Positions 21,320 through 64,000 of a stretch of DNA of 64,000 bases are shown piece by piece. How positions within the stretch are numbered: position 1 is the first letter of the stretch; every line of letters starts with the position of its first letter. Made by a program: the position numbers and the translations under genes. A model generated the notes under the pieces. The model was not told the DNA's origin. It did no database searches and saw only the letters and a list, made by a program, of their open reading frames with translations. The stretch is from Omphalotus guepiniiformis (Eukaryota > Basidiomycota > Agaricomycetes > Agaricales > Omphalotaceae), in NCBI GenBank assembly GCA_028554645.1, contig JAQOOI010000056.1:1-64000 (forward strand), in the 5' to 3' direction.

Positions 21320-21339
21320 CCCACTAAGTTACAGTTGAG

Positions 21340-29030: not shown

Positions 29031-29139
29031 AGAGAACAACCATCACTTGTTTAACATGACATATAAAATCAACTTTGTATTGTCATAAAAGAAAACTGTG
29101 GTTATTTCTATTGTACACTATTCCTGATTCCATTCCCTC

Positions 29140-30289: not shown

Positions 30290-30599
30290 AATACGCAAGG
30301 ATGCAGAAAGTGGAATTGCAAGGGTAATAAGGACCGAAATACACAAGTAAAGACTAGGTCTTATATTGAAGCCCAAATTCCAACCCAGTACCCTTCTTCG
30401 AGACCATCAAGCTAGTTATTCGAGACGAGTCACAGGTCGAAAAACGGTTCCGCATTCTTTCTGATAGGTGGCGTATAACAACCCGAGAACATTCTAAGAT
30501 CAGGGAAACAATGAAATGTGGAGCACGCGCCTGAATATCGAACCTAATCCTCTCCCGTTGAGCCATTATGTTCTGTGAAAAAAACCTCCAACTCCTTCT

Positions 30600-32300: not shown

Positions 32301-32736
32301 AATCCTTTGATCCCACGGCCTTGATTCCTTGTATCCCTGTGAGACATAATTTGAAGATCTAGGAAGAGGACAGATAACAGAGCAGCGGATGCGGGCAAAG
32401 ACAGAAAACGGATGGGACGCGCGTCAACGAATGAAGCACGTGATCCGTATTATTTAAGCATTCCGCGCGCGCCTGTCCGATGTCTAGAAATATCTGTGAA
32501 TTAAAGCCAACCTGGCCAATGGGCTCACGCAAATCCTTTCAACGATTAAGTGCAGTACAATTAGGATCATATGGGCAGACTGTGACAGGATTGTGGACTT
32601 AATTCAACAAGTGTTCCACACAATTTCATGAAATAATGGAATATGTGTAAAAGGTCTAAATTGGGGACATTTGTGCTAAACTTCAGCATGAATACGCAAG
32701 GCCGTCGAGGGCTCCGGCTGGTGAAGGGGGGTGTAC

Positions 32737-34128: not shown

Positions 34129-35367
34129 TGATACGACCGCGGGAATACCACTACCATTTTCGGCCTCGCGGGATTGATCACTCCAGTACAAACCTACTAA
34201 GTACACTGTATAGTCCTAAGTTCCGCGGTGTATTACGCACATTCAACCACTAGTATATGTGTACAAAGGTGTACAAGACTGTAGAACGACACTAAATGGG
34301 TCTTCTCAGTGTAGGTATTACCTAAGTATGCACTCAAGTAAAGTGTCGCGGCACTTGTTCTAAGGTCCGACGTGTATAACTTGATGGCCCCAATACTGTA
34401 TAAACCAACGCGTAGGTAACGAGGTACCGCGGCACTACTCAGAAGGCCAGACTTAGAAACCAGGTAGCAGTAGCTCCGTGCACTAGTCATATCTAATGAC
34501 CACTGTTGAGCCACAGAAGGGTCTAGACGTACGATGTAACACGAAGTACTTCCGACGACGCGGAAGTAGAACACGTAAGGAGACACAGCGTTAGCGAACT
34601 ACCGCGATACTTTCTAAAAGCGGCAAGATTATAACCCGATATAGGATACCCTGTTACCGCGTACTATACTTCATCCCTACCTTACGCGGTGCACCATATG
34701 CACCATATATCTCATAACTGTCAAGTATCGCGACATTTGTTTGTACTATGTAAATAGAGATACTGTATATAAGAAATAGAACCTGGGCAAGGAAGGGGAG
34801 GTTCCCGAGCCCCCCATAGAGCTAATAGCATTTGTGTGTGGAAAAGCTTAAGTCCCTCTGAGTGATTAGAAGTTTTAAAGTGTTAACCGTCGCGTTAGTT
34901 CATAAGTCAGTGTGCCTAAGTGTTTACAAGCGGGATCGTCTGGTACCGCGGAGCCTGTGTGTGTAGTGCGAATAAGAGTGGATCGTCTGGTCACTCGTTG
35001 AACTCGTCGTCTGGCAGTTCTGAAATCCTCCTATACCCAACTCCACTAAGTGAGAAGTCGTCTGGCATCTCCCAACAATCGTCTGGTTGTTGTATCGTTT
35101 GTAGTCACTGGTCGCGGTGATTTGTTAAAGTTACGCGTTAGTTTGTTTGAGTGGTGTGTAGCATAGAGTTATCTGTGCCGCGTCGGTTTTGACTGTGTCT
35201 CCGCGTTCCTCTTACAACAACCTTATTCGCTTCACAGAGTTTGTTAGTCCCCCAAACCCCACGAACTTAAAAGTCTTTGTGTGTTGTGTGTGTGTTTTGA
35301 GTGCTTGATAGATTCATTCGAGTTAGTTAGCACTTCTTCTCATTCATACCCCATACCAAGCACATCA
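34129..35367 (+). repeat. LTR1 of element 3
   Basis: 1239 bp, TGATACG...CACATCA. A TATA box TATATAAG lies at 34766-34773. It differs from LTR2 and LTR3 at about twenty positions, whereas those two differ from each other at about three. It contains 17 CGCG words. Confidence 0.92.
34926..35095 (+). other. Array of 5 stem-loops with invariant loop TCGTCTGG (LTR1)
   Basis: TCGTCTGG at 34936, 34983, 35007, 35058 and 35079. Flanks pair although they differ: GCGGGA/TACCGC (one mismatch), GAGTGGA/TCACTC (one bulge), GAACTCG/CAGTTC (one bulge), GAGAAG/CATCTC (one mismatch), CAACAA/TTGTTG (perfect). The array lies downstream of the TATA box, so it is in the RNA leader. Confidence 0.72.
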
Positions 35368-44514: not shown

Positions 44515-46828
44515 CTAGTTCTGATATGCATGGTGAAGAGAATCCGGGTTTATGGAGGAAAGCTCCCCCGCGTCGATTTTGGGTTGAATTTGTTCATCAA
44601 TAATCACCTTGGCCAAGTCCCCGCTAAGTCGAAGCTGGGCCAGGTAATCTTTGCCAAAATTAAAATACCCCGCAGCAATAATGTCGACGAGCTCCGCGAC
44701 CTTGCCTTCCGCCTTACGCTGAACCCCATGCATCGCTTTGGCAATATGATCCAGGTCTTCAAAAAGCGTCGCGGCCTCGTGTTGAAGAGATAGAGCATCT
44801 GAAAACTAGAAGTTAGGAGGAGAAAAGCAAGCAAAAGAAAGAAATACATACGGCGAACAGAGAAGAGGCCGCGGTTGTGCATTGCATCATCTTCGAGCGC
44901 GATCTTCCGTATACCGTAGCGAAATGTACAAGCCGAGTCCTTCTTACTCAAGCACTCGTTACAGGACTCGCCAGGTGCCACGAAGACACAAGGTTTGCCA
45001 TGAACGACACAAGAGCTGCACCGAAGAGAAGGCTAGCAACGAAAAGTAGAAAGTCAGAATAAAGTGCCGCGGTACAGGAAGCTAGATCACGTACCAGATT
45101 GACGCTCTTGGCCACGGATTGAAACATTTTGATATGAGAAGTCATCAGGGGCGGCAATAGACCAGGGAAATCGAAATTGATTGCTTGCGCAGAAGGAGCC
45201 TCGTTAGGCTGAAACCACCGCACACCTGCCTCGAAGTTGCCGTGAGAAGAGGAAGGAGCCGCGGAGGCTTTACTTCCCTTGGTGATAGGCAAGGAGTCGC
45301 GAGGAATTGCAGCGCCCATCTTCGCTGCCGCGGGGGAAAACATGGTCGTACCAGTATTGAGGATACCCCTCCACTTCGCGTAGAAATCGACGATTGTCCG
45401 CGGGATCACCCATTTGAGGAGGAGGAGTGAGGAATCGGCCCTCCTCTTGAATAGTAGTAGCCGCGGGTTTGGTATTGGCCCGCTTCTTACCTTTGCCTTT
45501 GCCTTTCACCTGAAAGGGAGAAGACCTTTAGAAAGAGTGTTGGACAACGGGCAAACCAGCAAGACTTACAGGAGGAGCTGGGTCCTCAGGTAGAGATGAA
45601 GTCGCGGGCAGCGCCGCGGAAGCTCCCGGTTGACTAACAGCAACAGCAGAAGGGGGAACGACTGTCGTGGAGGTTAATGGCGAAAAGGAAGCCGGTACCC
45701 CAGAGGAAAGAAGAGCAGGAGGGATCGCGCCGTCTCGCAGAGAAGGTGGTAAACGAGGGGTAACGGGCAGCGGCACCTCTATCATGTCCTGACCAAAGCC
45801 AGCGGATAAGTCAACCGGCGGAGGCGATCGAGAATGAGCCTAAGTAAGCCAGAGTTTTGAACAAAGAGTCGCGGAGAATTTGTAAAAGAAACTTACGAAG
45901 GGAGAGCCAGCAGAGGGAGTAGGAGCGGTAGCGGGCAAAGAAGTAGAGTCCGCGGGGACACTAGGAACAACCTCAGCTGTGGGCTCCGCGTCAGATTCAC
46001 TGTCCACGCGTCGTCGTCGAGAAAGAACGCGACGACGTTCCTTAGAAAACGAAGTCTCTATATCGGACTCGACAGCTTCATCATCGAACTAAGAAAAGAC
46101 GAAGTCAGAAAATAAGCATTAGGGAGGAACAGAGAAATAGTACCAAGTTCAACGGTGGAGGACGTTTTCCCGAACCAACGCGACGATGTCCATGTTTGCG
46201 GTGAGAACGCGCAACGGGAGTAGCTGACGCGGGGCTAAGATCGTAGGTCTCATCCTTAAAGGCCAAAAAGTCAGCGTCGTATTGCGCCCGATCTTCCGCG
46301 GTGACAGGGCGAAGCTGCAAGAGACAAGTAAAAGTATAAGGTAAAAGAAGGGACAAGAAACTGTTGTACCAAATGAGAAGTCTGACCGCGAGAACGAGCA
46401 CGCTTGGACGCGAGTTTTCTCAGCGTCTCACGGCGAACGTGTGAACGAGACTCCGCAGGAGGAGGCGATGGAGTACGACGCGAAGACGAAGCGAGTGAAG
46501 GCAAAGCCGCCGCGGAAGTAGGAATCACAGTCGGTTGGACAGCCAGTTGCCCGCTACGGATGTATTGAAGCAGAGCGAACTCCGCAGCAGATATAGACTG
46601 CTGTGAGTTAGGCTCCGACATTCCAGGAAGAGGTGCTGGGGCTGCCTCGCGGCGTTGTCGTTTGTGAGGGCGAGAGTTTGAAGGTCGAGGAGAGGGCATG
46701 ATAGATTTAGTCTCCGAAGGTGTGGGTGAAAAAGCCTGTCCAAGGAAGTTAAGAAAGGGATCACCAAGAGCGGCCGCGACACTTACTATTAAAGAATTAT
46801 AGTCAAGGGGTTCAGCTTTGATGGGCAT
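44515..46828 (-). pseudogene. Antisense gene A of element 3, copy 1 (zinc-cluster gene with a frameshift)
   Basis: Same eight-exon structure as copy 2, but the sixth exon has one extra G in a G-run (45332-45336, five G against four). This shifts the frame before the cysteine cluster. The TATA box TATATAAC on the minus strand (46885-46892) is kept. It may be a real loss or a homopolymer error. Confidence 0.7.
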
Positions 46829-47273: not shown

Positions 47274-48520
47274 TGATACGACCGCAGGAATACCACTACC
47301 ATTTTTTGGCCTCGCGGGATTGATCACTCCAGTACAAACCTACTAAGTACACTGTATAGTCCTAAGTTACGCGGTGTATTACGCACATTCAACCACTAGT
47401 ATATGTGTACAAAGGTGTACAAGACTGTAGAACGGCACTAAATGGGTCTTCTCAGTGTAGGTATTACCTAAGTATACACTCAAGTAAAGCGTCGCGGCAC
47501 TTGTTCTAAGGTCCGACGTGTATAACTTGATGGCCCCAATACTGTATAAACCAACGCGTAGGTAACAAAGTACCGCGGCACTACTCAGAAGGCCAGACTT
47601 AGAAACCAGGTAGCAGTAGCTCCGTGCACTAGTCATATCTAATGACCACTGTTGAGCCACAGAAGGGTCTAGACGTACGATGTAACACGAAGTACTTCCG
47701 ACGACGCGGAAGTAGAACACGTAAGGAGACACAGTGTTAGCGAACTACCGCGGTACTTTCTAAAAGCGGCAAGATTATAAACCGATATAGGATACCCTGT
47801 TTACCGCGTACTATACTTCATCCCTACCCTACGCGGTGCACCATATGCACCATATATCTCATAACTGTCAAGTATCGCGACATTTGTTTGTACTATGTAA
47901 ATAGAAATACTGTATATAAGAAATAGAACCTGGGCAAGGAAGGACAGGTTCCCGAGCCCCCCCCCCCATAGAGCTAATAGCATTTGTGTGTGGAAAAGCT
48001 TAAGTCCCTCTGAGTGATTAGAAGTTTTAAAAGTGTTAACCGTCGCGTTAGTTCATAAGTCAGTGTGCCTGAGTGTTTACAAGCGGGATCGTCTGGTACC
48101 GCGGAGCCTGTGTGTGTAGTGCGAAGAAGAGTGGATCGTCTGGTCACTCGTTGAACTCGTCGTCTGGCAGTTCTAAAATCCTCCTATACCCAACTCCACT
48201 AAGTGAGAAGTCGTCTGGCATCTCCCAACAATCGTCTGGTTGTTGTATCGTTTGTAGTCACTGGTCGCGGTGATTTGTTAAAGTTACGCGTTAGTTCGTT
48301 TGAGTGGTGTGTAGCATAGAGTTATCTGTGCCGCGTCGGTTTTGACTGTGTCTCCGCGTTCCTCTTACAACAACCTTATTCACTTCACAGAGTTTGTTAG
48401 TCCCCCAAACCCCACGAACTTAAAAGTCTTTGTGTGTTGTGTGTGTGTTTTGAGTGCTTGATAGATTCATTCGAGTTAGTTAGCACTTCTTCTCATTCAT
48501 ACCCCATACCAAGCACATCA
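47274..48520 (+). repeat. LTR2 of element 3 (shared by both copies)
   Basis: 1247 bp. TATA box 47913-47920; stem-loop array 48079-48248. It serves as 3' LTR of copy 1 and 5' LTR of copy 2. A C-run is 11 long here, 10 in LTR3 and 6 in LTR1. Confidence 0.92.
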
Positions 48521-48601
48521 TCTGGAGCCCACCGCGAGGGGTTTCTGATTAATAAACTAAGTAAAGTGTTTTAGGTTTCGTACGAGACCGAAGAGTTATA
48601 G

Positions 48602-50371
48602 TCGCGGTTGTCTAACCAACAATCAGACAAAACGTCTAGGCGAAGTTCACGGCCTTCAACGGTAGAGAATACCAGAGAGTCGTTAGCACGTGCAAAGGCA
48701 ATCAAAAGAGTTAGTAGCTACAGGAAGTCACATCCTGAAGTTGTTGCTCAACCCCGAGAATCGATTAACGTAGTTGACGCGGAAGATTCGAGTATTAGAC
48801 AGTCGCGGAACTTTGACGAAGAACTATCTGATTACGGAGAAGGTACTTCAATTCAATTTCCTAGGCCAGACCCACCGTCACGTCGAAACTCAGTAGTCCC
48901 ACCAACTATTGATAGACATTCTCATTCGGACGATGAACTATCCGAAGTCCACACACTTCTATTTGATTTACATATTTCACCGAACTCTGCACCTATTTTA
49001 CCTATAATTCAAGAAAATATCATAAAAATGCCGGCTATGGATAAGATTCCGAGGAGAAGAGAACGTGGAGCACCAGATTTGCGTCGCGATCATGATGTAG
49101 ACGACGTCAGAGACTATCTGGGGGAGATTGAGGATATTATCCAAGATTTCAAAATAGAGGAAGAAGCGGATAAGAAATCAGTCGCGTTGCGTTACCTACC
49201 CGCAACTATAAGAGAACAATGGAAGGCGTTGCCTACGTACGAGAAAGAGGAAGGGACGTTTATCGAGTTCCGCGACGAGATTTTGAAGAGTTATGATGGA
49301 GGATCGGACGAGGGAACTTTCTCCTTCGCAAAATTCGAAAGAGCCGCGAAGAAGTATAAGAATATAACGATGGAAGATCTCGAAGATGTATTAAGAATGA
49401 GGAATACCCTAAGGCCGTTCCTTAAGCACTACACTACGACCGCGTTGTATACTAACAGAGAAATTGTCAGAGTCCTCCGCGGAATGTTTGAAGATGAATT
49501 TTGGAGATCCATCACGTTGACTTTGAAGTTACAAAAGCGTGCGAACCCACCTGCAGAGGCTAGACCGAGAGATGATGCCTATACAGCAGAAGAGATTCTG
49601 GACGAGGCAGAATTTAACGCGAGATCTCAGGTTGAGGAAGTAATTAGTCTTGGGAACGTAAGGTCCGCGAAGGAAGATAGAGGAAAGAAAGTAGAAAAAG
49701 TGAAGCATGAGCAAACGGAAGGATGGGTGGCGGAATTGAAAGATCTAATCACGATTCAAACAAAGAACCTTACCCAGAGAGCCGCGAGAGAAGAAGAAAT
49801 GATGGGTAAACTGCTAGAGCAATTAAAGCTCGCGGCACCTGGAACGAGTAGCGGTACCAGGCATCCAGAACGTATACCCTATATGGCGCCGCGGGACTAC
49901 GGGAGAACCGCGTTGAATGACAACCGTCCCGACTACTTTCGAGCCGCGACGTGTTGGTTCTGTGGCTTAAACGGACATATGGCAGGGCAATGTATGGTAC
50001 GCAAGCAGTACGTAGATGATGGAAAGATCATTTTGAAAGAAGGGATCACTTGTATGCCAGATGGAGAGCCAGTAGCACAGAAAGCTCCAAATGGGCCTCC
50101 TCAGAAAGACTTTGTGGACCGAAGACTGTCTGAAAAGAAAGTACAAGCTTCTCAGGTTGAGGTACTACAGATGCAACTAGAGGAGGTCGAGTCGTACAAT
50201 AAACAGTACACTAGAGTTTGGCAAGAATATGAAGAGGCGAAGCGTGCTCAAGAAAGGGTGTTAGAATCCAATCTCAGCGCGGCCTATATTCGAGGGTCGG
50301 CAAGAGATTCAATAAGTAACGTGGCAGTTAGTAACAATGAGAAAGGAAGGTTCGAGGAGGGTTTTCGGTAA
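48602..50371 (+). CDS. Gag of element 3, copy 2
   Basis: Same 589-codon open frame as copy 1, with one changed residue in the N-terminal extension (Glu to Asp). That change creates an out-of-frame ATG in an otherwise ATG-free leader. Gag core, CCHC knuckle and terminal GGGTTTT heptamer (50359-50365) are all present. The first in-frame ATG corresponds to MPAMDKIPRRRERG. Confidence 0.85.
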   Translation, partial: SRLSNQQSDKTSRRSSRPSTVENTRESLARAKAIKRVSSYRKSHPEVVAQPRESINVVDAEDSSIRQSRNFDEELSDYGEGTSIQFPRPDPPSRRNSVVPPTIDRHSHSDDELSEVHTLLFDLHISPNSAPILPIIQENIIKMPAMDKIPRRRERGAPDLRRDHDVDDVRDYLGEIEDIIQDFKIEEEADKKSVALRYLPATIREQWKALPTYEKEEGTFIEFRDEILKSYDGGSDEGTFSFAKFERAAKKYKNITMEDLEDVLRMRNTLRPFLKHYTTTALYTNREIVRVLRGMFEDEFWRSITLTLKLQKRANPPAEARPRDDAYTAEEILDEAEFNARSQVEEVISLGNVRSAKEDRGKKVEKVKHEQTEGWVAELKDLITIQTKNLTQRAAREEEMMGKLLEQLKLAAPGTSSGTRHPERIPYMAPRDYGRTALNDNRPDYFRAATCWFCGLNGHMAGQCMVRKQYVDDGKIILKEGITCMPDGEPVAQKAPNGPPQKDFVDRRLSEKKVQASQVEVLQMQLEEVESYNKQYTRVWQEYEEAKRAQERVLESNLSAAYIRGSARDSISNVAVSNNEKGRFEEGFR

Positions 50372-51585
50372 GTTCGAGGATGGAAAGCCAGGCCCCTACA
50401 AAAGAGAAAAATCCTGTTAGGGCCGCGGCACCTGAGAATGATACTGAAAACAAGGGTAATGAACGACGGTTGTGGAAAGAAAAGGACGCGGAACCTGAGA
50501 AGGACGCGAGCCTAGAGAAAGATAAGTATAAGGAGTTGGTCAAGAGGGAAAAACGTTTGAGATTCGATGGTGTCGAGATGCCTCCGCTACCTACAGTAGT
50601 GAAGAAGAGCCGCGTACCAGAGGTTCCTTACGCGAACGTACCTGATGTGTCGTATTCGCCAACTGAGCAAGAGAAACTGAAAGCTCAGAAAGAGCGGTTA
50701 GAGAACCCGAGGGGGATAATTTGGAAGACAAGGAATGAGAAGGCCGCGGAGTCTCCTGTTATTCCGTTAACTAAACATCCTGACGCGGAAGAAACAGTAG
50801 TGGAATCAGAAATTTCACTCAGAGGAACGATCAAGTCAAGAGTCAAATTGAAGCCTGAAGAGACCGCGGGAGGTTTGAGAGAGATCCTAGCCAAAAGCCC
50901 CCTATTACCTTTTAGCGAGGAAAATGTAGGAGAGGTTCACGTAACAGCAAATACAGTCGCGTTAGCTGACCTTAATGTCACCGCGGAAGTTTTTGTTCTG
51001 AAACAGGCGGAAGGAGATCTTCCAGCAGGAGCGGTTGTGATTAGCGATCCAGTTGAACAGTACGTGGAAAGCCTGGGAAGCAAAGATAACCCAATTCAGA
51101 TCTACGTGGCAAGAGATTCAGAGTCGCTTCGATGCGTGTATCCTTTGGTAAATGGTACCGCGAAGATCGAAAGTCTACTAGACTCGGGTTCACAGATTAT
51201 CTCTACATCGGAGAAAAGAGCTCGCAAAGCAGGTTTATCGTGGGACCCGGACATAGTAATCTTTATGCAATCGGCTAACAAGGGTGTTGAGAAGTCTTTG
51301 GGATTGGCGCGTAATGTACCATTCTTACTAGGCGGAATCACCGTGTACTTACAAGTACATGTAATTCGAGACCCCGCATATGAATTGCTACTGGGACGGC
51401 CTTTTGACACGATCACGGAGAGTTTAGTGGATAATCATGCAGATGGAACGCAGGACCTTGTTATTCAGGACCCTAACACTAAGAAGCGAGCTGTTGTACC
51501 TACCTATGAGAGAGGGAAAGGTTCTGTACCTATAAGCAAAGACAAGGAACAGACTCAGGGTTTTTCAGCAGCTTCGAGGAATTGA
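50365..51585 (+). CDS. Protease (Pro) of element 3, copy 2
   Basis: As copy 1, with one visible substitution (Glu to Lys after KRAR). The LLDSGSQ active site and LLLGRPFD are intact. It is reached from gag by the heptamer at 50359 and leads to pol by the heptamer at 51558-51564. Confidence 0.82.
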   Translation, partial: SVSSRMESQAPTKEKNPVRAAAPENDTENKGNERRLWKEKDAEPEKDASLEKDKYKELVKREKRLRFDGVEMPPLPTVVKKSRVPEVPYANVPDVSYSPTEQEKLKAQKERLENPRGIIWKTRNEKAAESPVIPLTKHPDAEETVVESEISLRGTIKSRVKLKPEETAGGLREILAKSPLLPFSEENVGEVHVTANTVALADLNVTAEVFVLKQAEGDLPAGAVVISDPVEQYVESLGSKDNPIQIYVARDSESLRCVYPLVNGTAKIESLLDSGSQIISTSEKRARKAGLSWDPDIVIFMQSANKGVEKSLGLARNVPFLLGGITVYLQVHVIRDPAYELLLGRPFDTITESLVDNHADGTQDLVIQDPNTKKRAVVPTYERGKGSVPISKDKEQTQGFSAASRN

Positions 51586-54500
51586 TCCCAGATCAAGGAG
51601 AAGCCGCGGTGGTTTTTGAATTAAATGACGAAGGTATTCCCATTGGCATAAGTGATGTAGTATTTGCAGATATAAACGAAGAGCAAAAATCAAAGTTTGG
51701 GAAGCGAGAGTTACGCGATCTATACTTATCTGCCGCGGAAAAGTATATTGATCTAAAAAGTGATAAAGAAACGACGAGACCCATATTGAGATCCTATTTG
51801 AGTTCGGTGTATGGAGCGCAAAATCCTGCCGCGTACTCTCAAGCAAATTTCACGGTGCAAGAAGTAGAAGACGGCGTAGAAGAGTTACAGCAAATTCCCC
51901 TGTTTGATGTAAGGAGCATCGCGATGCTTGATGTATCCCCTGATATGAAAGATCAAGTGAGGAGGCACGCGTCGCGGCTGTGGAAGGAACGTTACGAACC
52001 AATTAGTATCTTGGCAGGGAAGAAATACAAACCTGTCGCGTTGAAAACACGCCCTGTTCTAGGAGATTTACCATCGAAGTTTAGAATCATAAGAGAGATT
52101 AAAGGAGATCCATTGGCTGATATGCCGCAGCTTTCGCCTAATCCTCCAGAATTCACGCCGACTGGTAGGTATACTCAGGAACGTAAAGAGATAATAGACG
52201 AGATACATAAGGAAGAATTCCTTTGGCCAGAAGAACGGAAGTTGATGCATCATATGATGATGCAGCAAGAGAAAGGGTTCGCGTGGGACGACAGTGAACG
52301 CGGAAGATTCAGAACAGATTTCTTTCCTTCAGTAGAGATGCCCGTGATACCTCATACACCTTGGGTTGAGAGGAACATTCCTATTCCCCCTGGTATTTTT
52401 AATGAAGTATGCGCGGCAGTTAGACGAAAGATTGACGCGGGAGTTTACAAACCATCGAACTCGTCTTACCGATCGAAGTGGTTCGCGGTGTTAAAGAAAG
52501 ACGGAAAGAGTATTCGACTAGTACATAGTTTGGAACCGTTGAACGCGGTAACAATAGCACATTCTGGTATACCGCCTGCTACTGAAGAGCTCGCGGAGAA
52601 ATTCTGTGGTAGAGCTTGTGGAGGAATTCTAGATTTATATGTTGGCTATGATGAAAGAGAGTTGGCAATAGCATCGCGAGACTTAACTACATTCCAGACT
52701 CCCTTTGGAGCCCTGAGGTTAGTAACACTACCGATGGGATGGACGAATTCAGTACCAATCTTCCACGATGATGTAACACACATATTACAAGAAGAGATCC
52801 CGGAGTTTACGCAACCATACATCGATGATGTTCCTGTACGCGGTCCTGAAACGACTTATCAAAGTGAAGATGGTACGTACGAGACCATTCCTGGTAATGA
52901 TGGGATACGGAGGTTTATTTGGGAACATTTCACCAATATGAATAGAGTCATTCAAAGAATGAAGTACTGTGGTGGGACTTTCTCAGGCCCCAAAGCTGTA
53001 TTGTGTAAAAGCGAGATTACCGTGGTCGGACATAGGTGTACACGAGAAGGAAGAGAGATCGACCCGGAACGAGCGAAAACTATTACCAACTGGGGTGGAC
53101 CTGAGAATATCCTAGAAGAGAAGGATATAAGACCATTCTTAGGCACCGCGGGACTAGTAAGAATGTTCGTCAAAGACTATGCAAAGATCGCGGAGCCTTT
53201 AACCCGATTTACGCGTAAAGATATTCCGTTCGAATGGCGACAAGAGCAAAGTGACGCATTGGCAAAGTTGAAAGAGGCAGTAAAGAATAGCAAGGCATTA
53301 CGACCACTAAAGTATGATGTGGAAGACCCTGTTATATTGGCAGTAGATACGTCGTGGAAAGCGGTTGGGTTCTATATTTGTCAAGTGGATCCAGAGAATC
53401 CGCGACGAAGGTTCTACTCCAGATTCGGTTCGATTACACTAAGTGATCGCGAAGCTAGGTTTTCACAGCCGAAACGGGAGTTGTTTGGTTTGTATCGCGC
53501 GTTACGAGCGTGCCAGTATTGGTTGTTTGGTATTCGCAACCTTATAATCGAAACTGACGCGAAGTACATTAAAGGCATGTTAGAGCATCCTGATCAAATG
53601 CCAAACGCCGCGATAAATAGGTGGATAGAGTCGATCATGATGTTTCATTTTAAACTGAAGCACGTACCAGGCAAGGTTCACGGACCTGATGGACTATCAC
53701 GGCGGGATAAGCAAGTAGGAGACGATGAGTATGACAATCCTGAAGATGGTGAAGTTCAAGAACCCTATAAATTCGAGGAGTTTGTAGATAAGATTGACTC
53801 TAAGCAGGGTTACGCGCAAGTATTAGTTGATGAGAAAGAGGAATGGAAAAGTAATTATATGACTGGTTTAGCCGCGTCGGTAGACGACTTTAAGGAAGAA
53901 TTGACGCGTGCTTATAAGCAAGAACGAGAGTTCCGCGACATACCAGAAGTAAAACAGTTTGTAGCCGCGAACTTGGCTAGTGAAGTACCAGAACTCGAGG
54001 AGCCACCAGAGCATATTGACGAAACAGAGTATGATGAGTCTAAGCGATCGAAGGGAGCGATAAACCAAGATAAAACAGTCGCGGAGGTTTTCAAATGGCT
54101 AACAGACACTTCTAAGAGGCCTGTAGGCTATGAGAATAACAAACACTTCAAGAACTTTTTAAGGTTAGCGCGGAACTTCTTTATACAAGACGGAAAACTC
54201 TATCGACGTGGAATTGAGGCAAAACATAAGCTGGTAGTTGAGAAGTCGCGTCGCGTCGCCATGATCCATGCTTGTCATGATAGTCTGGGGCACCGCGGCT
54301 TCTTCGCTACTAAATCCTTACTTATGGAACGCTTTTGGTGGCCTGAAATGGAGAAAGACATCTATGAGTATGTGAAGACCTGTCATACGTGCCAAGTAAG
54401 ACAAAAGACAAAGATCAGGATTCCTCCTACCGAGACGAAGACACCGTCAATCTTTCAGAAAATTCACGCTGACACCATGTATATGCCGGCGTCGAATGGC

Positions 54501-55523
54501 TACAAGCTGATTGTACATGGTAGGTGCGCGTTAACCGGCTGGATGGAAGGAAGACCGTTGAAAGCAGAGTCCGCAAGAGCGATTGGACAGTGGTTATGGG
54601 AAGAAATTATCTGCCGCTGGGGCTGTCTTATGGAGATAGTTACAGATAATGGCGGACCTTTTCTAAAGGCGTTGGAATGGTTAGAGAAGAAATATGGCGT
54701 ACGCGGTATTCGCATATCACCTTATAACTCCCAAGCCAACGGTATCGTGGAACACGCGCATTATGATGTGCGACACAGTCTCATAAAGGCCGCGGGAGGT
54801 GACGATTCAAAATGGTTTTACTATTTCTACTTAGTAATGTGGGCTGATAGGTGTACCATAAGAAAGAGATTTGGGTGCTCCCCATTCTTCGCAGTAACTG
54901 GTGCGCACCCCTCGCTACCTTTTGATATCGTTGAGGCAACATGGCTTGTAGAATATCCTGATCATTTCATAAGTGACGCGGAACTAATTGGACTACGGGC
55001 GAAAGCATTAGCTAAGCACGCGAAGCACATAGTTGAATTGCGGGAACGCGTAACACGTGAGAAAAGGTCACGGTTGTTGAGGTTTGAAAAAGAGTATAAG
55101 TATGTTATTAAAGACTACGTGTTTAAGCCAGGTAGTTTGGTCTTAGTTAGGAATACTCAGATTGAAAAATCTTTGAACTCTAAAACAAAGCCGCGCTATT
55201 TAGGACCTATGGTAGTACTCAGGCGTACCACAGGTGGCAGTTACATTGTGGCAGACCTAAATGGTGCGGTGTTCCAGAATAAAATTGGAGCCTTCCGCGT
55301 AATTCCATATTGGCCACGGTCGCACATTGAACTCCCCGAGAACCTAAGTGAGCTGATTGGTTTGTCAGAAGATGGCTTGTTGAGAATTGAACAAGGTCTA
55401 GAAGAAGAAGAAGAAGATTTATCCGTAGAACACGATCAAGCGGACCTAGATGGTGAAATTCACGCGGACGTTTCAGTATACGACGCGAAGCACTGGATAT
55501 CGAAGCCGAAGATCTTTCAGTAA
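51564..55523 (+). CDS. Pol of element 3, copy 2 (RT-RNase H-integrase), intact
   Basis: 1313 residues counted from 51582. Reverse transcriptase spans about residues 250-480 with YIDDVPV at about 411, in place of the usual YLDDILI. RNase H starts at about 585 (LAVDTSWKAVGFYI) and ends HVPGKVHGPDGLSRR. Integrase has an HHCC domain at about 895-935 (HACHDSLGHRGFF to TCHTCQ), then HADTMYM, VTDNGGPF at about 1020, and the catalytic Glu in NGIVEHAHYDV. A basic C-terminal domain (GSLVLVRNTQIEKSLNSKTK) and an acidic tail follow, with no chromodomain. Protease is absent because it is in the preceding frame. Confidence 0.93.
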   Translation, partial: FSSFEELIPDQGEAAVVFELNDEGIPIGISDVVFADINEEQKSKFGKRELRDLYLSAAEKYIDLKSDKETTRPILRSYLSSVYGAQNPAAYSQANFTVQEVEDGVEELQQIPLFDVRSIAMLDVSPDMKDQVRRHASRLWKERYEPISILAGKKYKPVALKTRPVLGDLPSKFRIIREIKGDPLADMPQLSPNPPEFTPTGRYTQERKEIIDEIHKEEFLWPEERKLMHHMMMQQEKGFAWDDSERGRFRTDFFPSVEMPVIPHTPWVERNIPIPPGIFNEVCAAVRRKIDAGVYKPSNSSYRSKWFAVLKKDGKSIRLVHSLEPLNAVTIAHSGIPPATEELAEKFCGRACGGILDLYVGYDERELAIASRDLTTFQTPFGALRLVTLPMGWTNSVPIFHDDVTHILQEEIPEFTQPYIDDVPVRGPETTYQSEDGTYETIPGNDGIRRFIWEHFTNMNRVIQRMKYCGGTFSGPKAVLCKSEITVVGHRCTREGREIDPERAKTITNWGGPENILEEKDIRPFLGTAGLVRMFVKDYAKIAEPLTRFTRKDIPFEWRQEQSDALAKLKEAVKNSKALRPLKYDVEDPVILAVDTSWKAVGFYICQVDPENPRRRFYSRFGSITLSDREARFSQPKRELFGLYRALRACQYWLFGIRNLIIETDAKYIKGMLEHPDQMPNAAINRWIESIMMFHFKLKHVPGKVHGPDGLSRRDKQVGDDEYDNPEDGEVQEPYKFEEFVDKIDSKQGYAQVLVDEKEEWKSNYMTGLAASVDDFKEELTRAYKQEREFRDIPEVKQFVAANLASEVPELEEPPEHIDETEYDESKRSKGAINQDKTVAEVFKWLTDTSKRPVGYENNKHFKNFLRLARNFFIQDGKLYRRGIEAKHKLVVEKSRRVAMIHACHDSLGHRGFFATKSLLMERFWWPEMEKDIYEYVKTCHTCQVRQKTKIRIPPTETKTPSIFQKIHADTMYMPASNGYKLIVHGRCALTGWMEGRPLKAESARAIGQWLWEEIICRWGCLMEIVTDNGGPFLKALEWLEKKYGVRGIRISPYNSQANGIVEHAHYDVRHSLIKAAGGDDSKWFYYFYLVMWADRCTIRKRFGCSPFFAVTGAHPSLPFDIVEATWLVEYPDHFISDAELIGLRAKALAKHAKHIVELRERVTREKRSRLLRFEKEYKYVIKDYVFKPGSLVLVRNTQIEKSLNSKTKPRYLGPMVVLRRTTGGSYIVADLNGAVFQNKIGAFRVIPYWPRSHIELPENLSELIGLSEDGLLRIEQGLEEEEEDLSVEHDQADLDGEIHADVSVYDAKHWISKPKIFQ

Positions 55524-55743
55524 ATCACTCAAGAGATAGGGCCACATGGCAGTTTTATTATAAAAACGAGTGTATGATCTGTACGTGTTATGTTGAAATA
55601 TACGCGACAAATTGGAAATAAATAAGTTTACGCGATAGTTGAATACAAGTGCGGAAGGGAAACGGAAAGTTACGCGGTACCTCTATTCACGACAAGAAGA
55701 TTAAAAAGTGTCGCGGAAGCACAAGAAAAGTTCCAGAAGCAGT

Positions 55744-57182
55744 TCAAGTATCAGTCACGGAGGGCATATCTTCGTCGCCAGTCATATCGATAAGGGGAAC
55801 GTTAGTTTTATTAACCAGCTCCTTCTGCTGCGACGCGATGCTCTGGTAGCTCTTCATCAGCAAATCCCGCATTTGGAGCTGGAGACTGATCTGATGGTTG
55901 ACCGCGATAAGTTTAGAGCGAGTCTCGAACTCCAGCATGGTGAGGCTACGATCAGTAGGCCCACTAACGGGTTCGAGCACCGCGAGATTGGCACGATCAA
56001 CGAGTGACTGCACAACCGAGTTAGAGAAAGTGGAGACAGGGTCTACCAAAAGATAGGTTAGTTGAAAAGTCGCTAGCGGCAGTATGAAAACGTGACACGT
56101 ACTAGGGGGTGCCAGAGGTGGATCGAGCATAGAGAAGTTGTGCGCCCAAGTAGGAGGAGCTGCCGCGACACTAACCACCTCCATCTTAGCTTTCTTGGCA
56201 GGAGGATTGATGGTACTCTTATCCACCGCGGCAACTGCCTTAAGGTATTGCCGTGAAGTAATAAGCATGCGTGGTATCTCAGAAAAGTGGAGATATCTTA
56301 CGGGGTGATTAGTCGACGCGTGAGGCTATGAAAGGAACGTTAAGTCAGAATAACATTGGGAGAAGGAATGGTGGTCGTACCCTTTTAACTGCCGCGACGC
56401 TAGGCTCAACCTTTGGAGTAAAGGGGGCAACGCGGGTAACTTCTTCAACTGCTGCGAGGTCGAGAGTCTGAAGCGAGGTACATAGTTTTAGCAACAGAGC
56501 AAGCTGGCTCGGGGTAGGGTGGCGACCTACCGTGGTATTAGTAGTGGAATCTGCAATAGAGGGGGATTCATCGTCACCCATAGCAATATCGCTACCCGCC
56601 GCGTCGTCGTCAACCTCCTCGTCACTACTATCAATACGAGCTTGGGATGCAATACGCTTGCGAATCTAGGAAAAAGTTTTAGTACCAGTGGTTATTCAAG
56701 AAAAAGAACTGATTACTTACGCGGCGGCTAGTACGAACGCGACCTTTGCCTTTGACGGGCACTGGGGTTACAGCAGTTGGAACAGGAGCAGCCGCGGCGA
56801 CTTTGGGAACCTCCTTGGGTTTACCAAACTGAACACATTTACCGTGGTACGGACCAAGTAAATGATGAGTTGGTGTATACTTCGCGGTAACTGGGTCCCG
56901 CGGCAGTTGTTCAAAGAAGAACAGAGTGAAAGTACGAATGTCAGCGTTAGCCAGCGCGGCATCAGGGTGAGCTTTCCAGAGCTCGAGCTAAAAAGAGCGA
57001 AGTAAGGCACGGGAAGGGAGTCAGCGCAGTAGGAAACCTACGAGTTTTTGTGCACAAGACATCGCGATGCGATTAGCATCGTCAGCACCACGTTTGGCTC
57101 GACGCTCGCTAAACGACTTATAAAGAGGTGCTACCTCTTCCACGAGAAACTGGACGTCAACAGAAGAAGTATCAGTAGACAT
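55744..57182 (-). CDS. Antisense gene B of element 3, copy 2 (6 exons)
   Basis: Exons are 57042-57182, 56721-56987, 56381-56665, 56302-56325, 56103-56238 and 55744-56042. Introns are 54-63 nt with GT-AG ends. The total is 1152 nt, or 383 residues. A minus-strand TATA box TATAAAAG (57221-57228) precedes the ATG (MSTDTSSVDV) by about 40 bp. The N-terminal half is a globular-looking region (FLVEEVAPLYKSF, FTLFFFEQLPRDPVTAKYTP), then basic and acidic linkers, and a helical C-terminus (HQISLQLQMRDLLMKSYQS) ending PLIDMTGDEDM. I recognise no family. An order B then A behind pol, reading towards pol, is shared by both copies. Confidence 0.68.
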
Positions 57183-57659
57183 AAGTGAATCCGATCGGAA
57201 GAACTTAGGGTTTGGAGGGCCTTTTATACCAGGCCAGGGCAGTCATGACTACGAGGAAACTTGTCAGTGTAGAATTCTAAGTCCGCGATACTTACTTTCA
57301 AAGTGGACGCGGCGGACCATATGGTACTTTACCAAAGGACACGAGTGTTCAAGACAACTGGGGACAGTTGCAATTTCAAAGATGGGGAAGGGTCACAGGA
57401 GTAGAAAAGTACCGCGTAAGGATCGCTCGAATGTACCGCGTAGAGTTAAGTGCCGCGTAGGATCGCTTGAATTCTGAAAAATCTTATATAACAAAGAAAG
57501 TGTCATACAGCTTAAAGATTCAATCTCCATGAAACAAAAGCAGTGATGATTTTCATGTAACAAAGAATATACAGGATCCGCGATATGACAATACTACGAT
57601 ACTAAAAGCTTTTATTACCGCGGGGCCTGGACAAGAACGATGAACGCATGCAGTGATCA

Positions 57660-59969
57660 CTAGTTCTGATATGCATGGTGAAGAGAATCCGGGTTTATGG
57701 AGGAAAGCTCCCCCGCGTCGATTTTGGGTTGAATTTGTTCATCAATAATCACCTTGGCCAAGTCCCCGCTAAGTCGAAGCTGGGCCAGGTAATCTTTGCC
57801 AAAATTAAAATACCCCGCAGCAATAATGTCGACGAGCTCCGCGACCTTGCCTTCCGCCTTACGCTGAACCCCATGCATCGCTTTGGCAATATGTTCCAGG
57901 TCTTCAAAAAGCGTCGCGGCCTCGTGTTGAAGAGATAGAGCATCTGAAAACTAGAAGTTAGGAGGAGAAAAGCAAGCAAAAGAAAGAAATACATACGGCG
58001 AACAGAGAAGAGGCCGCGGTTGTGCATTGCATCATCTTCGAGCGCGATCTTCCGTATACCGTAGCGAAATGTACAAGCCGAGTCCTTCTTACTCAAGCAC
58101 TCGTTACAGGACTCGCCAGGTGCCACGAAGACACAAGGTTTGCCATGAACGACACAAGAGCTGCACCGAAGAGAAGGCTAGCAACGAAAAGTAGAAAGTC
58201 AGAATAAAGTGCCGCGGTACAGGAAGCTAGATCACGTACCAGATTGACGCTCTTGGCCACGGATTGAAACATTTTGATATGAGAAGTCATCAGGGGCGGC
58301 AATAGACCAGGGAAATCGAAATTGATTGCTTGCGCAGAAGGAGCCTCGTTAGGCTGAAACCACCGCACACCTGCCTCGAAGTTGCCGTGAGAAGAGGAAG
58401 GAGCCGCGGAGGCTTTACTTCCCTTGGTGATAGGCAAGGAGTCGCGAGGAATTGCAGCGCCCATCTTCGCTGCCGCGGGGAAAACATGGTCGTACCAGTA
58501 TTGAGGATACCCCTCCACTTCGCGTAGAAATCGACGATTGTCCGCGGGATCACCCATTTGAGGAGGAGGAGTGAGGAATCGGCCCTCCTCTTGAATAGTA
58601 GTAGCCGCGGGTTTGGTATTGGCCCGCTTCTTACCTTTGCCTTTGCCTTTCACCTGAAAGGGAGAAGACCTTTAGAAAGAGTGTTGGACAACGGGCAAAC
58701 CAGCAAGACTTACAGGAGGAGCTGGGTCCTCAGGTAGAGATGAAGTCGCGGGCAGCGCCGCGGAAGCTCCCGGTTGACTAACAGCAACAGCAGAAGGGGG
58801 AACGACTGTCGTGGAGGTTAATGGCGAAAAGGAAGCCGGTACCCCAGAGGAAAGAAGAGCAGGAGGGATCGCGCCGTCTCGCAGAGAAGGTGGTAAACGA
58901 GGGGTAACGGGCAGCGGCACCTCTATCATGTCCTGACCAAAGCCAGCGGATAAGTCAACCGGCGGAGGCGATCGAGAATGAGCCTAAGTAAGCCAGAGTT
59001 TTGAACAAAGAGTCGCGGAGAATTTGTAAAAGAAACTTACGAAGGGAGAGCCAGCAGAGGGAGTAGGAGCGGTAGCGGGCAAAGAAGTAGAGTCCGCGGG
59101 GACACTAGGAACAACCTCAGCTGTGGGCTCCGCGTCAGATTCACTGTCCACGCGTCGTCGAGAAAGAACGCGACGACGTTCCTTAGAAAACGAAGTCTCT
59201 ATATCGGACTCGACAGCTTCATCATCGAACTAAGAAAAGACGAAGTCAGAAAATAAGCATTAGGGAGGAACAGAGAAATAGTACCAAGTTCAACGGTGGA
59301 GGACGTTTCCCCGAACCAACGCGACGATGTCCATGTTTGCGGTGAGAACGCGCAACGGGAGTAGCTGACGCGGGGCTAAGATCGTAGGTCTCATCCTTAA
59401 AGGCCAAAAAGTCAGCGTCGTATTGCGCCCGATCTTCCGCGGTGACAGGGCGAAGCTGCAAGAGACAAGTAAAAGTATAAGGTAAAAGAAGGGACAAGAA
59501 ACTGTTGTACCAAATGAGAAGTCTGACCGCGAGAACGAGCACGCTTGGACGCGAGTTTTCTCAGCGTCTCACGGCGAACGTGTGAACGAGACTCCGCAGG
59601 AGGAGGCGATGGAGTACGACGCGAAGACGAAGCGAGTGAAGGCAAAGCCGCCGCGGAAGTAGGAATCACAGTCGGTTGGACAGCCAGTTGCCCGCTACGG
59701 ATGTATTGAAGCAGAGCGAACTCCGCAGCAGATATAGACTGCTGTGAGTTAGGCTCCGACATTCCAGGAAGAGGTGCTGGGGCTGCCTCGCGGCGTTGTC
59801 GTTTGTGAGGGCGAGAGTTTGAAGGTCGAGGAGAGGGCATGATAGATTTAGTCTCCGAAGGTGTGGGTGAAAAAGCCTGTCCAAGGAAGTTAAGAAAGGG
59901 ATCACCAAGAGCGGCCGCGACACTTACTATTAAAGAATTATAGTCAAGGGGTTCAGCTTTGATGGGCAT
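57660..59969 (-). CDS. Antisense gene A of element 3, copy 2: Zn2Cys6-like protein (8 exons)
   Basis: Exons are 59928-59969, 59511-59876, 59285-59455, 59041-59229, 58714-58983, 58240-58653, 57997-58177 and 57660-57943. The seven introns are 51-62 nt, all GT-AG. The joined 1917 nt give 638 residues. TATATAAC on the minus strand (60026-60033) makes MPIKAEPLDY the first ATG of the transcript. Residues 1-480 are mostly disordered and Ser/Pro/Ala-rich with basic patches (RPHKRQRR). In exon 7 six cysteines, residues 489, 492, 499, 508, 511 and 519, are spaced C-x2-C-x6-C-x8-C-x2-C-x7-C. This fits the fungal Zn2Cys6 binuclear cluster, although it is C-terminal rather than N-terminal and less basic than Gal4. 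A helical tail follows. A DNA-binding role is inference. Confidence 0.68.
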
Positions 59970-60414
59970 AAACCAGTGATGAAAGAGGGAGCAAAAAGTT
60001 GAAGTTCGACACCCGGGCACTGAAGGTTATATACACCTCGCGGCGATGGGGTCCTCAGATTGGTGCCAGTATCAAGTTCCATTCCTAGAAGACGCGAGAG
60101 CAAGAGTTTGATGTATTACACACTTATTCAGGGTACGACATACAGCTTTGACAAAGAAGCGATGGCAATTCATTAACTGAATAACCGGTATGTCCGGGAA
60201 CTAACGTAACCGGACGATGAGGAATGAAGAGACGCGGCGATTTACCAATAAGGCAACGTGATGGAATGTGATGTGACAAGAAGGAGGGAGAGCGCTACAT
60301 GGGTCAGAAAGAAGTTTGTGATATCCAGAAAAGGGAGGTTGATGCGCCTTTCCAGGATAGACCCTGAGTAGGACCCCAGCGACTGGGACAGTCGATATTT
60401 TAGTCAGGGGGAGA

Positions 60415-61660
60415 TGATACGACCGCAGGAATACCACTACCATTTTTTGGCCTCGCGGGATTGATCACTCCAGTACAAACCTACTAAGTACACTGTATAG
60501 TCCTAAGTTACGCGGTGTATTACGCACATTCAACCACTAGTATATGTGTACAAAGGTGTACAAGACTGTAGAACGGCACTAAATGGGTCTTCTCAGTGTA
60601 GGTATTACCTAAGTATACACTCAAGTAAAGCGTCGCGGCACTTGTTCTAAGGTCCGACGTGTATAACTTGATGGCCCCAATACTGTATAAACCAACGCGT
60701 AGGTAACAAAGTACCGCGGCACTACTCAGAAGGCCAGACTTAGAAACCAGGTAGCAGTAGCTCCGTGCACTAGTCATATCTAATGACCACTGTTGAGCCA
60801 CAGAAGGGTCTAGACGTACGATGTAACACGAAGTACTTCCGACGACGCGGAAGTAGAACACGTAAGGAGACACAGTGTTAGCGAACTACCGCGGTACTTT
60901 CTAAAAGCGGCAAGATTATAAACCGATATAGGATACCCTGTTTACCGCGTACTATACTTCATCCCTACCCTACGCGGTGCACCATATGCACCATATATCT
61001 CATAACTGTCAAGTATCGCGACATTTGTTTGTACTATGTAAATAGAAATACTGTATATAAGAAATAGAACCTGGGCAAGGAAGGACAGGTTCCCGAGCCC
61101 CCCCCCCATAGAGCTAATAGCATTTGTGTGTGGAAAAGCTTAAGTCCCTCTGAGTGATTAGAAGTTTTAAAAGTGTTAACCGTCGCGTTAGTTCATAAGT
61201 CAGTGTGCCTGAGTGTTTACAAGCGGGATCGTCTGGTACCGCGGAGCCTGTGTGTGTAGTGCGAAGAAGAGTGGATCGTCTGGTCACTCGTTGAACTCGT
61301 CGTCTGGCAGTTCTGAAATCCTCCTATACCCAACTCCACTAAGTGAGAAGTCGTCTGGCATCTCCCAACAATCGTCTGGTTGTTGTATCGTTTGTAGTCA
61401 CTGGTCGCGGTGATTTGTTAAAGTTACGCGTTAGTTCATTTGAGTGGTGTGTAGCATAGAGTTATCTGTGCCGCGTCGGTTTTGACTGTGTCTCCGCGTT
61501 CCTCTTACAACAACCTTATTCACTTCACAGAGTTTGTTAGTCCCCCAAACCCCACGAACTTAAAAGTCTTTGTGTGTTGTGTGTGTGTTTTGAGTGCTTG
61601 ATAGATTCATTCGAGTTAGTTAGCACTTCTTCTCATTCATACCCCATACCAAGCACATCA
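60415..61660 (+). repeat. LTR3 of element 3
   Basis: 1246 bp, nearly identical to LTR2. TATA box 61054-61061; stem-loop array 61219-61388. It ends CACATCA, and the following bases belong to a different element. Confidence 0.92.
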
Positions 61661-62029: not shown

Positions 62030-62920
62030 ATGTCTGACGAATCACAAAAAGGAAGATCCCTTTTGAACAAGCCTGAGAATTTCACCGGAGCTAAAGGAGA
62101 ATTCAAGATATGGCGAAGAAGGTTGTTCATGTTCATTCGTGATAAGAAAAACAACATCAACTCTGATGACGAGAGAATAGATGTTGCTATTTCTTACATG
62201 AATGGCAAGAACACAGACGGATGGGTTCAAAATTATTACGAGACCCATTACAACGAAGAAGAAGAGAAATGGAAAAAGACGTGGGCTGAGTTCAAACAAG
62301 ATTTGAACACCGCGTTCTTGGATTCGGGTTTGCAGCGAGCAGCCCAAGAGAAGATCGAAGTGCTCAGACAGGGCACTGGAACGGCTGAAGAGTATTTCCA
62401 GCAATTGGAAATACTGTTGACCGAGGCCGAGTACAAGAAGGATGATCCCTATGTAGTCAGGATTATCGAGAAGGGCATCAGTGACAAGATCATTGACGCA
62501 ATCTATTCACAAGATGCGTTGCCGGTGGATTATGCAACATGGAAAGACAAAGTGATCAAAATTGATCACTTATGGCGCAGGCGCCAAGAGATGCGAAAGC
62601 ATCTCGGACAGAATCGATCGGCCTTTGTGCCAAGAGAAACAAGCCCGCAGAACGCGGCACGTGGTGGCGACCGTAAAGACGCCACAGGAACAACCTTTGG
62701 GGGCATAGGTAAACCCATGGATCTGGATGTAGCCCGAAAGACCGGGTTATGTTTCAATTGCGGAGTCAAGGGACACATGTCCCGAGATTGCCCATTGAAG
62801 AAGGAACAGAGAGTGCGGCAGATAAATGTGACAGAGGAAGAGAAGAAGGAAGAACAGCCACCGAGCTGGTTCCTAAACTGGTTGAAGTCGGACACGGGTT
62901 TTGTCAAGACTCAGAAGTGA
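62030..62920 (+). CDS. Gag of element 4
   Basis: 296 residues from MSDESQKGRSLLNKPENFTG. The Gag core (FKIWRRRLFMFIRDKKNNIN to the AILYS/IDAIYSQDALPVDY area) is followed by a CCHC knuckle at residues 241-254 (CFNCGVKGHMSRDC) and an acidic, Lys/Glu-rich linker. This is a normal length for the family. The frame ends at TGA 62918 after the heptamer at 62896. It is unrelated in detail to the Gag of elements 2 and 3. Confidence 0.88.
   Translation: MSDESQKGRSLLNKPENFTGAKGEFKIWRRRLFMFIRDKKNNINSDDERIDVAISYMNGKNTDGWVQNYYETHYNEEEEKWKKTWAEFKQDLNTAFLDSGLQRAAQEKIEVLRQGTGTAEEYFQQLEILLTEAEYKKDDPYVVRIIEKGISDKIIDAIYSQDALPVDYATWKDKVIKIDHLWRRRQEMRKHLGQNRSAFVPRETSPQNAARGGDRKDATGTTFGGIGKPMDLDVARKTGLCFNCGVKGHMSRDCPLKKEQRVRQINVTEEEKKEEQPPSWFLNWLKSDTGFVKTQK
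62896..62902 (+). promoter_or_regulatory. -1 frameshift heptamer GGGTTTT, gag-pol of element 4
   Basis: In the gag frame: ACG_GGT_TTT, the same heptamer used twice in element 3. The -1 frame is open from here to the end of the window. Confidence 0.75.
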
Positions 62921-64000
62921 TTACAGGTCCTTCTGAGTCAGAATCGGAACAATCTAGTGTAGATCACATAGATAGCAAATTTCATTTTGTATTTACGCAC
63001 CCTGAGAATAAATTTGCATCAGCATCTACAAAGACCGATTCAAAACCTGTGAGAGAGAGATATCCGCCGAATTCACCAGAATGGATAGCGCAGAGAGTAA
63101 GAGAGGATGAGTCAGAACGAGCGGTGGGAATCTTGAGAACGTGGATGCCAACCTGTCGGGCCAGGGAAGCATCGGAAGCAACGGTTGCCCAAATTAGGTC
63201 ATTGGATATTAGCGAAGCCGTATCAGCCGTAAAGACGCTCAAAAAGTCTTTACGCTTTGTAAAAGGTACTAAGGGACGAGATCTCAAATTGTCGATCACA
63301 ATCGAAGACATAGAAAGTGGCAAACAAATTGAGACGTCGGCATTACTTGATAGTGGAGCCACGGGTTCTTGCGTAAACAAAGAATTCGTAGAAAAGCACG
63401 GCTTAACTGTCAAGAAACTACCAATCAGAATGCCAGTATATAATGCAGATGGTACCTTAAACGAAGATGGTTCAATCGAAGGATTTGTGGAAGTCAGATT
63501 GGCAATAGGAGATCATGCGGAACGCATTGAACTTGCTGTCACCAATTTAGGAAAAACGGACATTTTCTTAGGACTAGACTGGTTAAGACGTCATAATCCA
63601 AATATAGATTGGAATGATTCAATTTTAAACTTTGACCGGTGTCCAAAAAAGTGTGGCTATATCCCGTTTTACCTAAAACCCGAATCTGAGGCTGAGATCC
63701 AAGAACTTGAAGAAGGTGACAGGTTGTTTTACCTGAATTGGGACGGATATCTCCGGAGTATGACTTTTGGAAAAGGAAAAAAGACGGAGTCAAAGGCAGA
63801 CAAGTATGTCAATGAGTATAAAGATGTCTTTGACGAAGCCGATTTCCAAAATCTACCGGAACGTAGACCCTGGGACCATGCAATCGAATTGAAGCCGGAC
63901 TTCACACCGGTTGATTGCAAAGTATATCCATTAAACCCTGCGGAACAAGTAGTATTGGATGAGTTTATCAAGGAAAACCTGAAATCTGGACGAATCAGAA
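62902..64000 (+). CDS. Pol of element 4, 5' part (protease, start of RT)
   Basis: Open to the window edge. After about 130 residues of linker, the protease reads ALLDSGATGSCVNKEFV, with IFLGLDWLRRHNPNIDW as its C-terminal strand and Trp motif. The pre-RT segment YKDVFDEADFQNLPERRPWD and the RT start (AIELKPDFTPVDCKVYPLNP, then FIKENLKSGRIR) are typical of Ty3/gypsy. Truncated by the window, not by mutation. Confidence 0.88.

Follow-up and report, generated by a model that had tools for sequence, protein, structure and literature searches.

A retrotransposon that repeats one short word along its whole length, coding sequence included, raises two questions: which protein reads the word, and to what end. 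The element considered here comes from the fungus Omphalotus guepiniiformis, in which a stretch of 64,000 nucleotides (the window; contig C48 of the 80 contigs in the 42.5-Mb assembly that was searched) contains two Ty3-like units arranged head to tail at a repeat distance of 13.1 kb. The LTRs of this tandem array lie on the plus strand at 34129..35367, 47274..48520 and 60415..61660, and the second unit (47274..61660, plus strand), which carries the dispersed word CGCG, begins with the middle one (TGATACGACC...AAGCACATCA) and ends with the last as its 3' LTR. Between them follow, all on the plus strand, a gag-like ORF (48608..50371) with the zinc-knuckle-like word CX2CX4HX4C, a protease-like ORF (50380..51585) and a pol ORF (51582..55523) with RNase H and an integrase zinc-binding domain; in the second unit pol forms a single ORF, while that of the first (38429-42378) is fragmented into several. 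Pol has 1612 protein-database relatives at E <= 0.001, and among the best 120 of these the closest reaches 71% identity and the closest named relatives are from Lentinula edodes (69%) and Armillaria ostoyae (66%); no pol relatives were found in viral contigs. With RNase H, an integrase domain and LTRs, the carrier is not a DNA transposon of the VANDAL or Mutator-like kind. Beyond the last LTR, 62030-64000 belongs to another Ty3 element, which has a zinc-knuckle gag and no CGCG array.

Two genes, A and B, are encoded antisense behind pol, facing it, before the 3' LTR. Gene B is read on the minus strand from an ATG at 59969 to a stop at 57660 and comprises 638 codons in eight exons: exon 1 (59928..59969; MPIKAEPLDYNSLI), whose first 10 residues are the same in four aligned sequences, exon 2 (59511..59876), exon 3 (59285..59455), exon 4 (59041..59229), exon 5 (58714..58983), exon 6 (58240..58653), exon 7 (57997..58177) and exon 8 (57660..57943, to the stop). 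The seven introns are of the GT-AG type, measure 51-62 nt and have phases 0,0,0,0,0,0,1, and a TATA-like box, GTATATAACC, is found on the same strand at 60025..60034, 65 bp upstream of the ATG; TATATAA likewise precedes gene B in the copies on contigs C78 and C63. The N-terminus, MPIKAEP, is a SUMO-site-like word. Gene A (55744..57182, minus strand) starts at an ATG at 57182 with a TATA at 57230, is spliced at internal sites that were placed by eye and are provisional, and ends in PLIDMTGDED (55747-55800), a SIM-like terminus. A relationship of the two genes as paralogues was rejected, since the gene A protein, in its provisional form, has no meaningful similarity to that of gene B.

At least 133 exon matches to gene B were obtained from the assembly, and they group into three main alleles. 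Ten stretches were run through a custom spliced aligner, and introns were mapped to residues; the aligner rewards the donor consensus, and single placements are therefore approximate. All seven introns are present at matching residues (within 4) and in matching phases in C78:621k, C63 and C36, six of six are in place in the truncated C14 copy, and six of seven in C65 and C78:260k. The C16:547k copy has seven, one with an odd donor beside a stop, and the C16:169k copy is too decayed for an intron fit. Gene B of the first tandem unit (44518..46828, minus strand) shows the seven introns and a spurious additional one that the spliced alignment required in exon 6, which matches in two pieces, suggesting that its reading frame is probably disturbed. 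The eight-exon antisense gene with a minus-strand TATA box that the sequence-only reading had proposed is thus upheld, by a model of 638 aa whose introns are kept in diverged copies.

The protein has six cysteines, at residues 489, 492, 499, 508, 511 and 519, with none elsewhere, and all are encoded by exon 7. Their spacing, CX2CX6CX8CX2CX7C, satisfies CX2CX6CX5-16CX2CX6-8C, the consensus spacing of the fungal Zn2Cys6 cluster (PF00172), and no instance of a looser Zn2Cys6 pattern was found in 131,988 six-frame codons of other DNA. The exact pattern, free of stops, is present in 36 of 40 scanned stretches, some of which overlap one copy; the other four (L009, L052, L053 and L056) contain truncated or decayed copies. 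No Pfam family scores above its cut-off for the full protein of gene B or of gene A. Zn_clus alone responds to exon 7, with 11.3 bits over 13 residues, and to a 35-residue core, with 13.6 bits and 13 residues matched, where the curated cut-off is 21. The first loop of a Zn2Cys6 cluster usually carries a basic run; that of gene B is VVHGKP, with one lysine, and the cluster is placed in the last third of the protein. Single-sequence AlphaFold2 modelling of exon 7 alone gave a pLDDT of 55, a PDB sequence search returned no match, and no homologue outside this genome was found in the protein database with residues 340-638 or with alignment A2 as the query, leaving no independent lineage in which protein and motif could be compared for coevolution. 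Of the zinc-cluster protein that had been proposed from the letters of the DNA, the Zn2Cys6 spacing and the preserved cysteines stand; the score below the Zn_clus cut-off (11.3 of 21 bits) keeps the assignment at "zinc-cluster-like".

Comparison of the gene B copies supports purifying selection on the protein. Three typed copies have 85, 58 and 58% identity to the window protein, and dN/dS (Nei-Gojobori) is 0.17-0.22 over the whole gene in four comparisons; for exon 7 it is 0.04, 0.04 and 0.09 in three comparisons, with dS saturated for G3_C78b. By this measure no part of the protein is more constrained than the zinc cluster. The DNA around it behaves differently from the rest of the element: three elements with the G3 allele match the window unit at 94-96% in the 3' end of pol and gene A, and two of the three are 97-98% identical in the LTR, whereas identity falls to ~46-59% per 250 bp over ~58.3-59.6 kb, sloping on both sides. 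A G2 copy is 97-98% identical in the flanks and 79% in gene B exons 2-6. Identity does not recover past the diverged gene B stretch in C14, a truncated copy. Gene B has therefore diverged inside elements that are otherwise alike, suggesting that it is swapped or diversifies on its own, and on these alignments the zinc exon is nearly fixed in protein while the cassette around it diverges. Window positions 57300-59800, set against L041, L046, L048 and L039, have diverged to ~50% DNA identity inside elements that otherwise agree at 94-98% where compared, which points to cassette exchange or local diversification.

The word CGCG occurs 153 times in the 13.2 kb between 47274 and 60414, against expectations of 46.6 from dinucleotide and 84.7 from trinucleotide composition. 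Synonymous-codon shuffling of gag, protease and pol yields 27.0 sites where 75 are observed (6.5 against 16, 4.4 against 12 and 16.1 against 47 in the respective ORFs), making CGCG the top 4-mer with a z of 11.4; the highest z among all 4-6-mers in three other TE gene sets is 7.4. For six gene B copies, codon shuffling predicts 8.5-12.7 sites where 18-27 are present (P 0.001-0.002), with 27 in the window copy. Density is 9.1-14.6 per kb in every part of the unit longer than 450 bp and 6.7 per kb in the 445 bp that precede gene B. Along the window it is 7-15 per kb across 34-61.6 kb and 0-10 per kb elsewhere, with a mean of 3.1 per kb in the host stretch at 1-16 kb, and the two kb after the last LTR contain two sites and then none; GCGC stays at 0-5 per kb in the element. 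The motif is confined to the element and enriched along it, which bears out an earlier remark on a dispersed CGCG motif: the sites exceed dinucleotide, trinucleotide and codon expectation and end at the element boundary. Genome-wide, a CGCG triplet pattern was found 1124 times against 768 for its reverse, a measure too blunt for placing arrays.

The sites are also spaced and flanked in a regular manner. Gaps shorter than 16 bp number four where random placement gives 24.6, and none of 20,000 simulations was as low. The CGCG core lies within a 16-bp palindrome, AAnYnHCGCGDnRnTT, that recurs about every 86 bp, with symmetric flanks that favour A at -6 and -5, Y at -3 and C at -1 and avoid G at -1; other CpGs have flat flanks. 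Each of five separate segments (LTR, gag and protease, pol, gene A region and gene B region) has A(-6) in 0.41-0.62 of its half-sites (p 2.5e-3 to 2.8e-7). The 16 sites of the LTR have A(-6) at 0.62, A(-5) at 0.62 and Y(-3) at 0.91, and the 24 sites of a G3 cassette on C78 have A(-6) at 0.54. Neither the 52 CGCG sites found in 17 kb of host DNA in the window (A(-6) 0.27) nor 33 further sites from other TEs or host DNA (0.23) show the pattern. Individual sites turn over: within gene B exons 2-6, the window has 23, C14 and C65 have 14 each with 2 shared with the window, and C63 has 17 with 8 shared, the shared counts being approximate as the comparison was made at 50-54% DNA identity. A 16-bp palindrome combined with a 16-bp exclusion distance is the imprint expected of a dimeric DNA-binding protein, and the array looks like a series of dimer-binding sites; that some protein binds it is predicted with near certainty.

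The element itself probably encodes that protein, and gene B is our candidate for it, a narrower prediction that we hold with somewhat less confidence. Gene B is proposed on account of its DNA-binding-type signature, where constraint on the protein is strongest, and of the yeast zinc clusters that bind CGCG. Gene A, which is equally element-borne, could be the binder instead, as could Gag, integrase or a host factor.

The CpG content of the element bears on the purpose of the binding. The observed/expected ratio of CpG is 1.11 in the unit and 0.98 in host DNA, and 0.17, 0.32, 0.57, 0.58, 0.64 and 0.65 in other TE-bearing stretches. An old copy of the element, C55, has lost 212 of 629 CpGs relative to the window unit, 194 of them to TG, CA or TA, and has gained 59, of which 43 from TG or CA. 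TG, CA or TA in place of CpG is the mark of deaminated 5-methylcytosine. Low ratios in many TEs, together with the decay of C55, suggest that the host seems to mutate CpG in many of its TEs; the living lineage of the element seems to have escaped this loss for as long as the gene B alleles took to diverge, which indirectly supports an escape from CpG methylation. CpGs inside CGCG are better kept than other CpGs in all nine copies compared with the window unit, with one-sided Fisher p<0.05, uncorrected, in five (C14, C16:547k, C65, C78:250k and C16:169k) and uncorrected values of 0.11, 0.059, 0.19 and 0.088 in C63, C36, C55 and C18, respectively. The element at 62-64 kb, however, retains a ratio of 0.95 without any array, so retention is not specific to the array and may partly reflect the youth of the element, and our confidence in a role against silencing is lowered accordingly. 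The old C55 copy (L053, 3328-4924), whose decay from CpG to TpG is strong, has gene B only in pieces.

Taken together, these observations are best accommodated, at a probability of roughly 45%, by self-recognition of an LTR retrotransposon in the manner of the VANC proteins, with anti-silencing as its main effect. The Ty3-like element would encode a nuclear Zn2Cys6-like protein, expressed in antisense to pol from a promoter of the element's own, and this protein would bind AAnYnHCGCGDnRnTT as a dimer over the full length of the element, in the LTRs as well as in coding regions. Element copies coated in this way would be kept free of CpG methylation and heterochromatin, and the element would remain transcribable while the rest of the genome is unaffected. 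We infer the role of gene B as binder, its nuclear location, zinc binding, dimer binding and the anti-silencing outcome from the features described above.

In the VANDAL transposons of Arabidopsis, the protein VANC21 removes methylation and binds a motif, YAGTATTAY, that lies in the noncoding parts of VANDAL21 (PMC5735166, PMC10398659). Both systems would combine an element-encoded protein with a short motif repeated in its own element (PMC5735166, PMC10398659), and each protein is conserved in some parts and variable in others; the living lineage of the present element seems to be protected from losing CpGs. The present element differs in being a fungal LTR retrotransposon whose gene is antisense to pol and zinc-cluster-like, and its motif is palindromic, contains CpG and lies in coding and noncoding DNA, whereas that of VANC21 is noncoding and often in tandem repeats (PMC5735166). 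The parallel with VANC drawn in the sequence-only reading accordingly survives in part: a dispersed, element-restricted motif and an element-borne gene agree with it, but the motif also occupies coding sequence and the carrier is not Mutator-like. Gene B is likened to VANC by its supposed mode of action and is not claimed as a member of that family. What VANC does after binding is left open by its authors (PMC5735166).

Self-recognition could serve another end, with the protein of gene B or gene A acting as a transcription activator or as a coat on DNA or cDNA, which we regard as unlikely but the most serious of the alternatives. The LTR matches the rest of the unit in CGCG density, two sites lie in the 87-bp 5' leader, and CpG is retained without an array at 62-64 kb; the authors of the VANC paper also weighed an activator reading (PMC5735166). 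An activator, however, would have no need of ~100 coding sites (75 in gag, protease and pol and 27 in gene B), and element-wide CpG retention fits whole-length protection. It is improbable that a host CGCG-binding factor of the RSC or APSES type is exploited instead, with the array opening chromatin while gene B acts otherwise. APSES proteins are host factors with CGCG specificity, and the same specificity is known for Rsc3/30 (PMC6959994), but the flank pattern is missing from the 52 host and 33 other sites given above. Reading of the motif in RNA, or by Gag, nucleocapsid or integrase, for packaging or targeting is very improbable: the motif is dispersed through the genomic RNA, and Gag and integrase have zinc-binding modules, yet the palindromic flanks are those of a dimer site on double-stranded DNA, and three sites lie in the 393 nt of gene B introns. 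An origin of the array in composition, codon bias or mutation bias can be dismissed, for although the element is CpG-rich and the trinucleotide null already supplies more than half of the sites, the synonymous-codon nulls fall far short, GCGC stays at 0-5 per kb, and the spacing, the flank structure and the turnover of sites at a maintained density rule it out.

The VANC-like self-recognition proposed for gene B also touches on several systems known from other elements and hosts. Antisense ORFs are relatively frequent, and unexplained, in plant Ty3 elements such as Grande, RIRE2 and Retand; TRP28 of Retand is predicted to have, and may have, DNA-binding activity, and tandem repeats occur after pol, before the 3' LTR, in about half of the Retand elements (PMC7264820, PMC11963269). 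These elements share with ours an antisense gene between pol and the 3' LTR that is conserved in the family, and an element-wide self-motif, as seen here, is not mentioned for Retand in the passages cited (PMC7264820, PMC11963269). Gene B differs from the plant ORFs in its domain and its seven introns. Among fungi, the Botrytis Ty3 element Boty has the antisense gene brtn (PMC8365987). The likeness is that of a fungal Ty3 element with an antisense gene. Zhao in 2011 is said to have reported brtn as the antisense gene of Boty. Rsc3 and Rsc30, zinc-cluster subunits of the yeast RSC complex, bind CGCG, and zinc cluster, CGCG binding and action on chromatin are all theirs, but they are host proteins and their cluster is N-terminal, unlike that of gene B (PMC6959994). 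TE-borne proteins have been proposed to act against cytosine methylation in fungi before, in DNA transposons that encode a TET/JBP dioxygenase; that system is enzymatic, unlike the action proposed for gene B, and the survey found none in retrotransposons (PMC12730594). Among the matches listed in a literature search, no paper described an LTR retrotransposon that pairs a zinc-cluster gene in antisense with a self-motif dispersed along it.

Other Ty3 elements of the same genome offer hints of a wider rule. A sister family (pol 48% identical, 1340-aa ORF; L049 1-8001 and L050 1-3400) has, as read by eye, the start of a spliced antisense gene and a TATA box at the matching place. Its CGCG density is 0.3 per kb and its CpG content is low; ATCTG occurs 94 times in 11.4 kb and 41 times where codon shuffling gives 19.9, this excess, which drops at the element edge, may point to a dispersed motif of its own, but the flank information of the word does not stand out, ranking 9 of 223. 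Further sister families have 61-65% pol identity. A Ty3 element with a chromodomain pol and intact gag and pol ORFs occupies 20209-33400 of the window; its CpG ratio is 0.17 in gag-pol and 0.95 in the antisense region, the mark of a long-term CpG loss in an element that is still intact. It has an antisense gene without a readable six-cysteine cluster and no CGCG array; ACTTCT occurs 26 times in its gag-pol against 8.4 expected (z 7.4), and the flanks of ACTTC rank 120 of 313. The antisense protein of this element ends in TVIDLTGEDDEDED (29160-29230), and this end and PLIDMTGDED of gene A are both taken by us to be SUMO-interaction-like. It is possible, but on balance doubtful, that the Ty3 elements of the clade generally carry antisense DNA-binding genes with family-specific dispersed motifs, so that each family would unsilence only itself, and that the gene B cassette is exchanged while the zinc exon and the motif stay fixed. 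As the motif holds two CpGs, methylation may block binding, and such methylation-gated binding would give each copy an on/off memory.

Among transposons, the VANDALs of Arabidopsis are the best documented case of sequence-specific anti-silencing. Even if the anti-silencing role proves false, there would remain a retrotransposon whose coding sequence has been shaped by ~150 probable protein-binding sites. If it is true, this element would offer a compact zinc-cluster-like reader with a clear 16-bp palindrome, and with it a simple tool for recruiting anti-silencing to chosen DNA, and would provide a job for the unexplained antisense genes of Ty3 elements. It would also add a second case, unrelated to the first and found in a different kingdom and a different class of element, which would make the strategy a general one.
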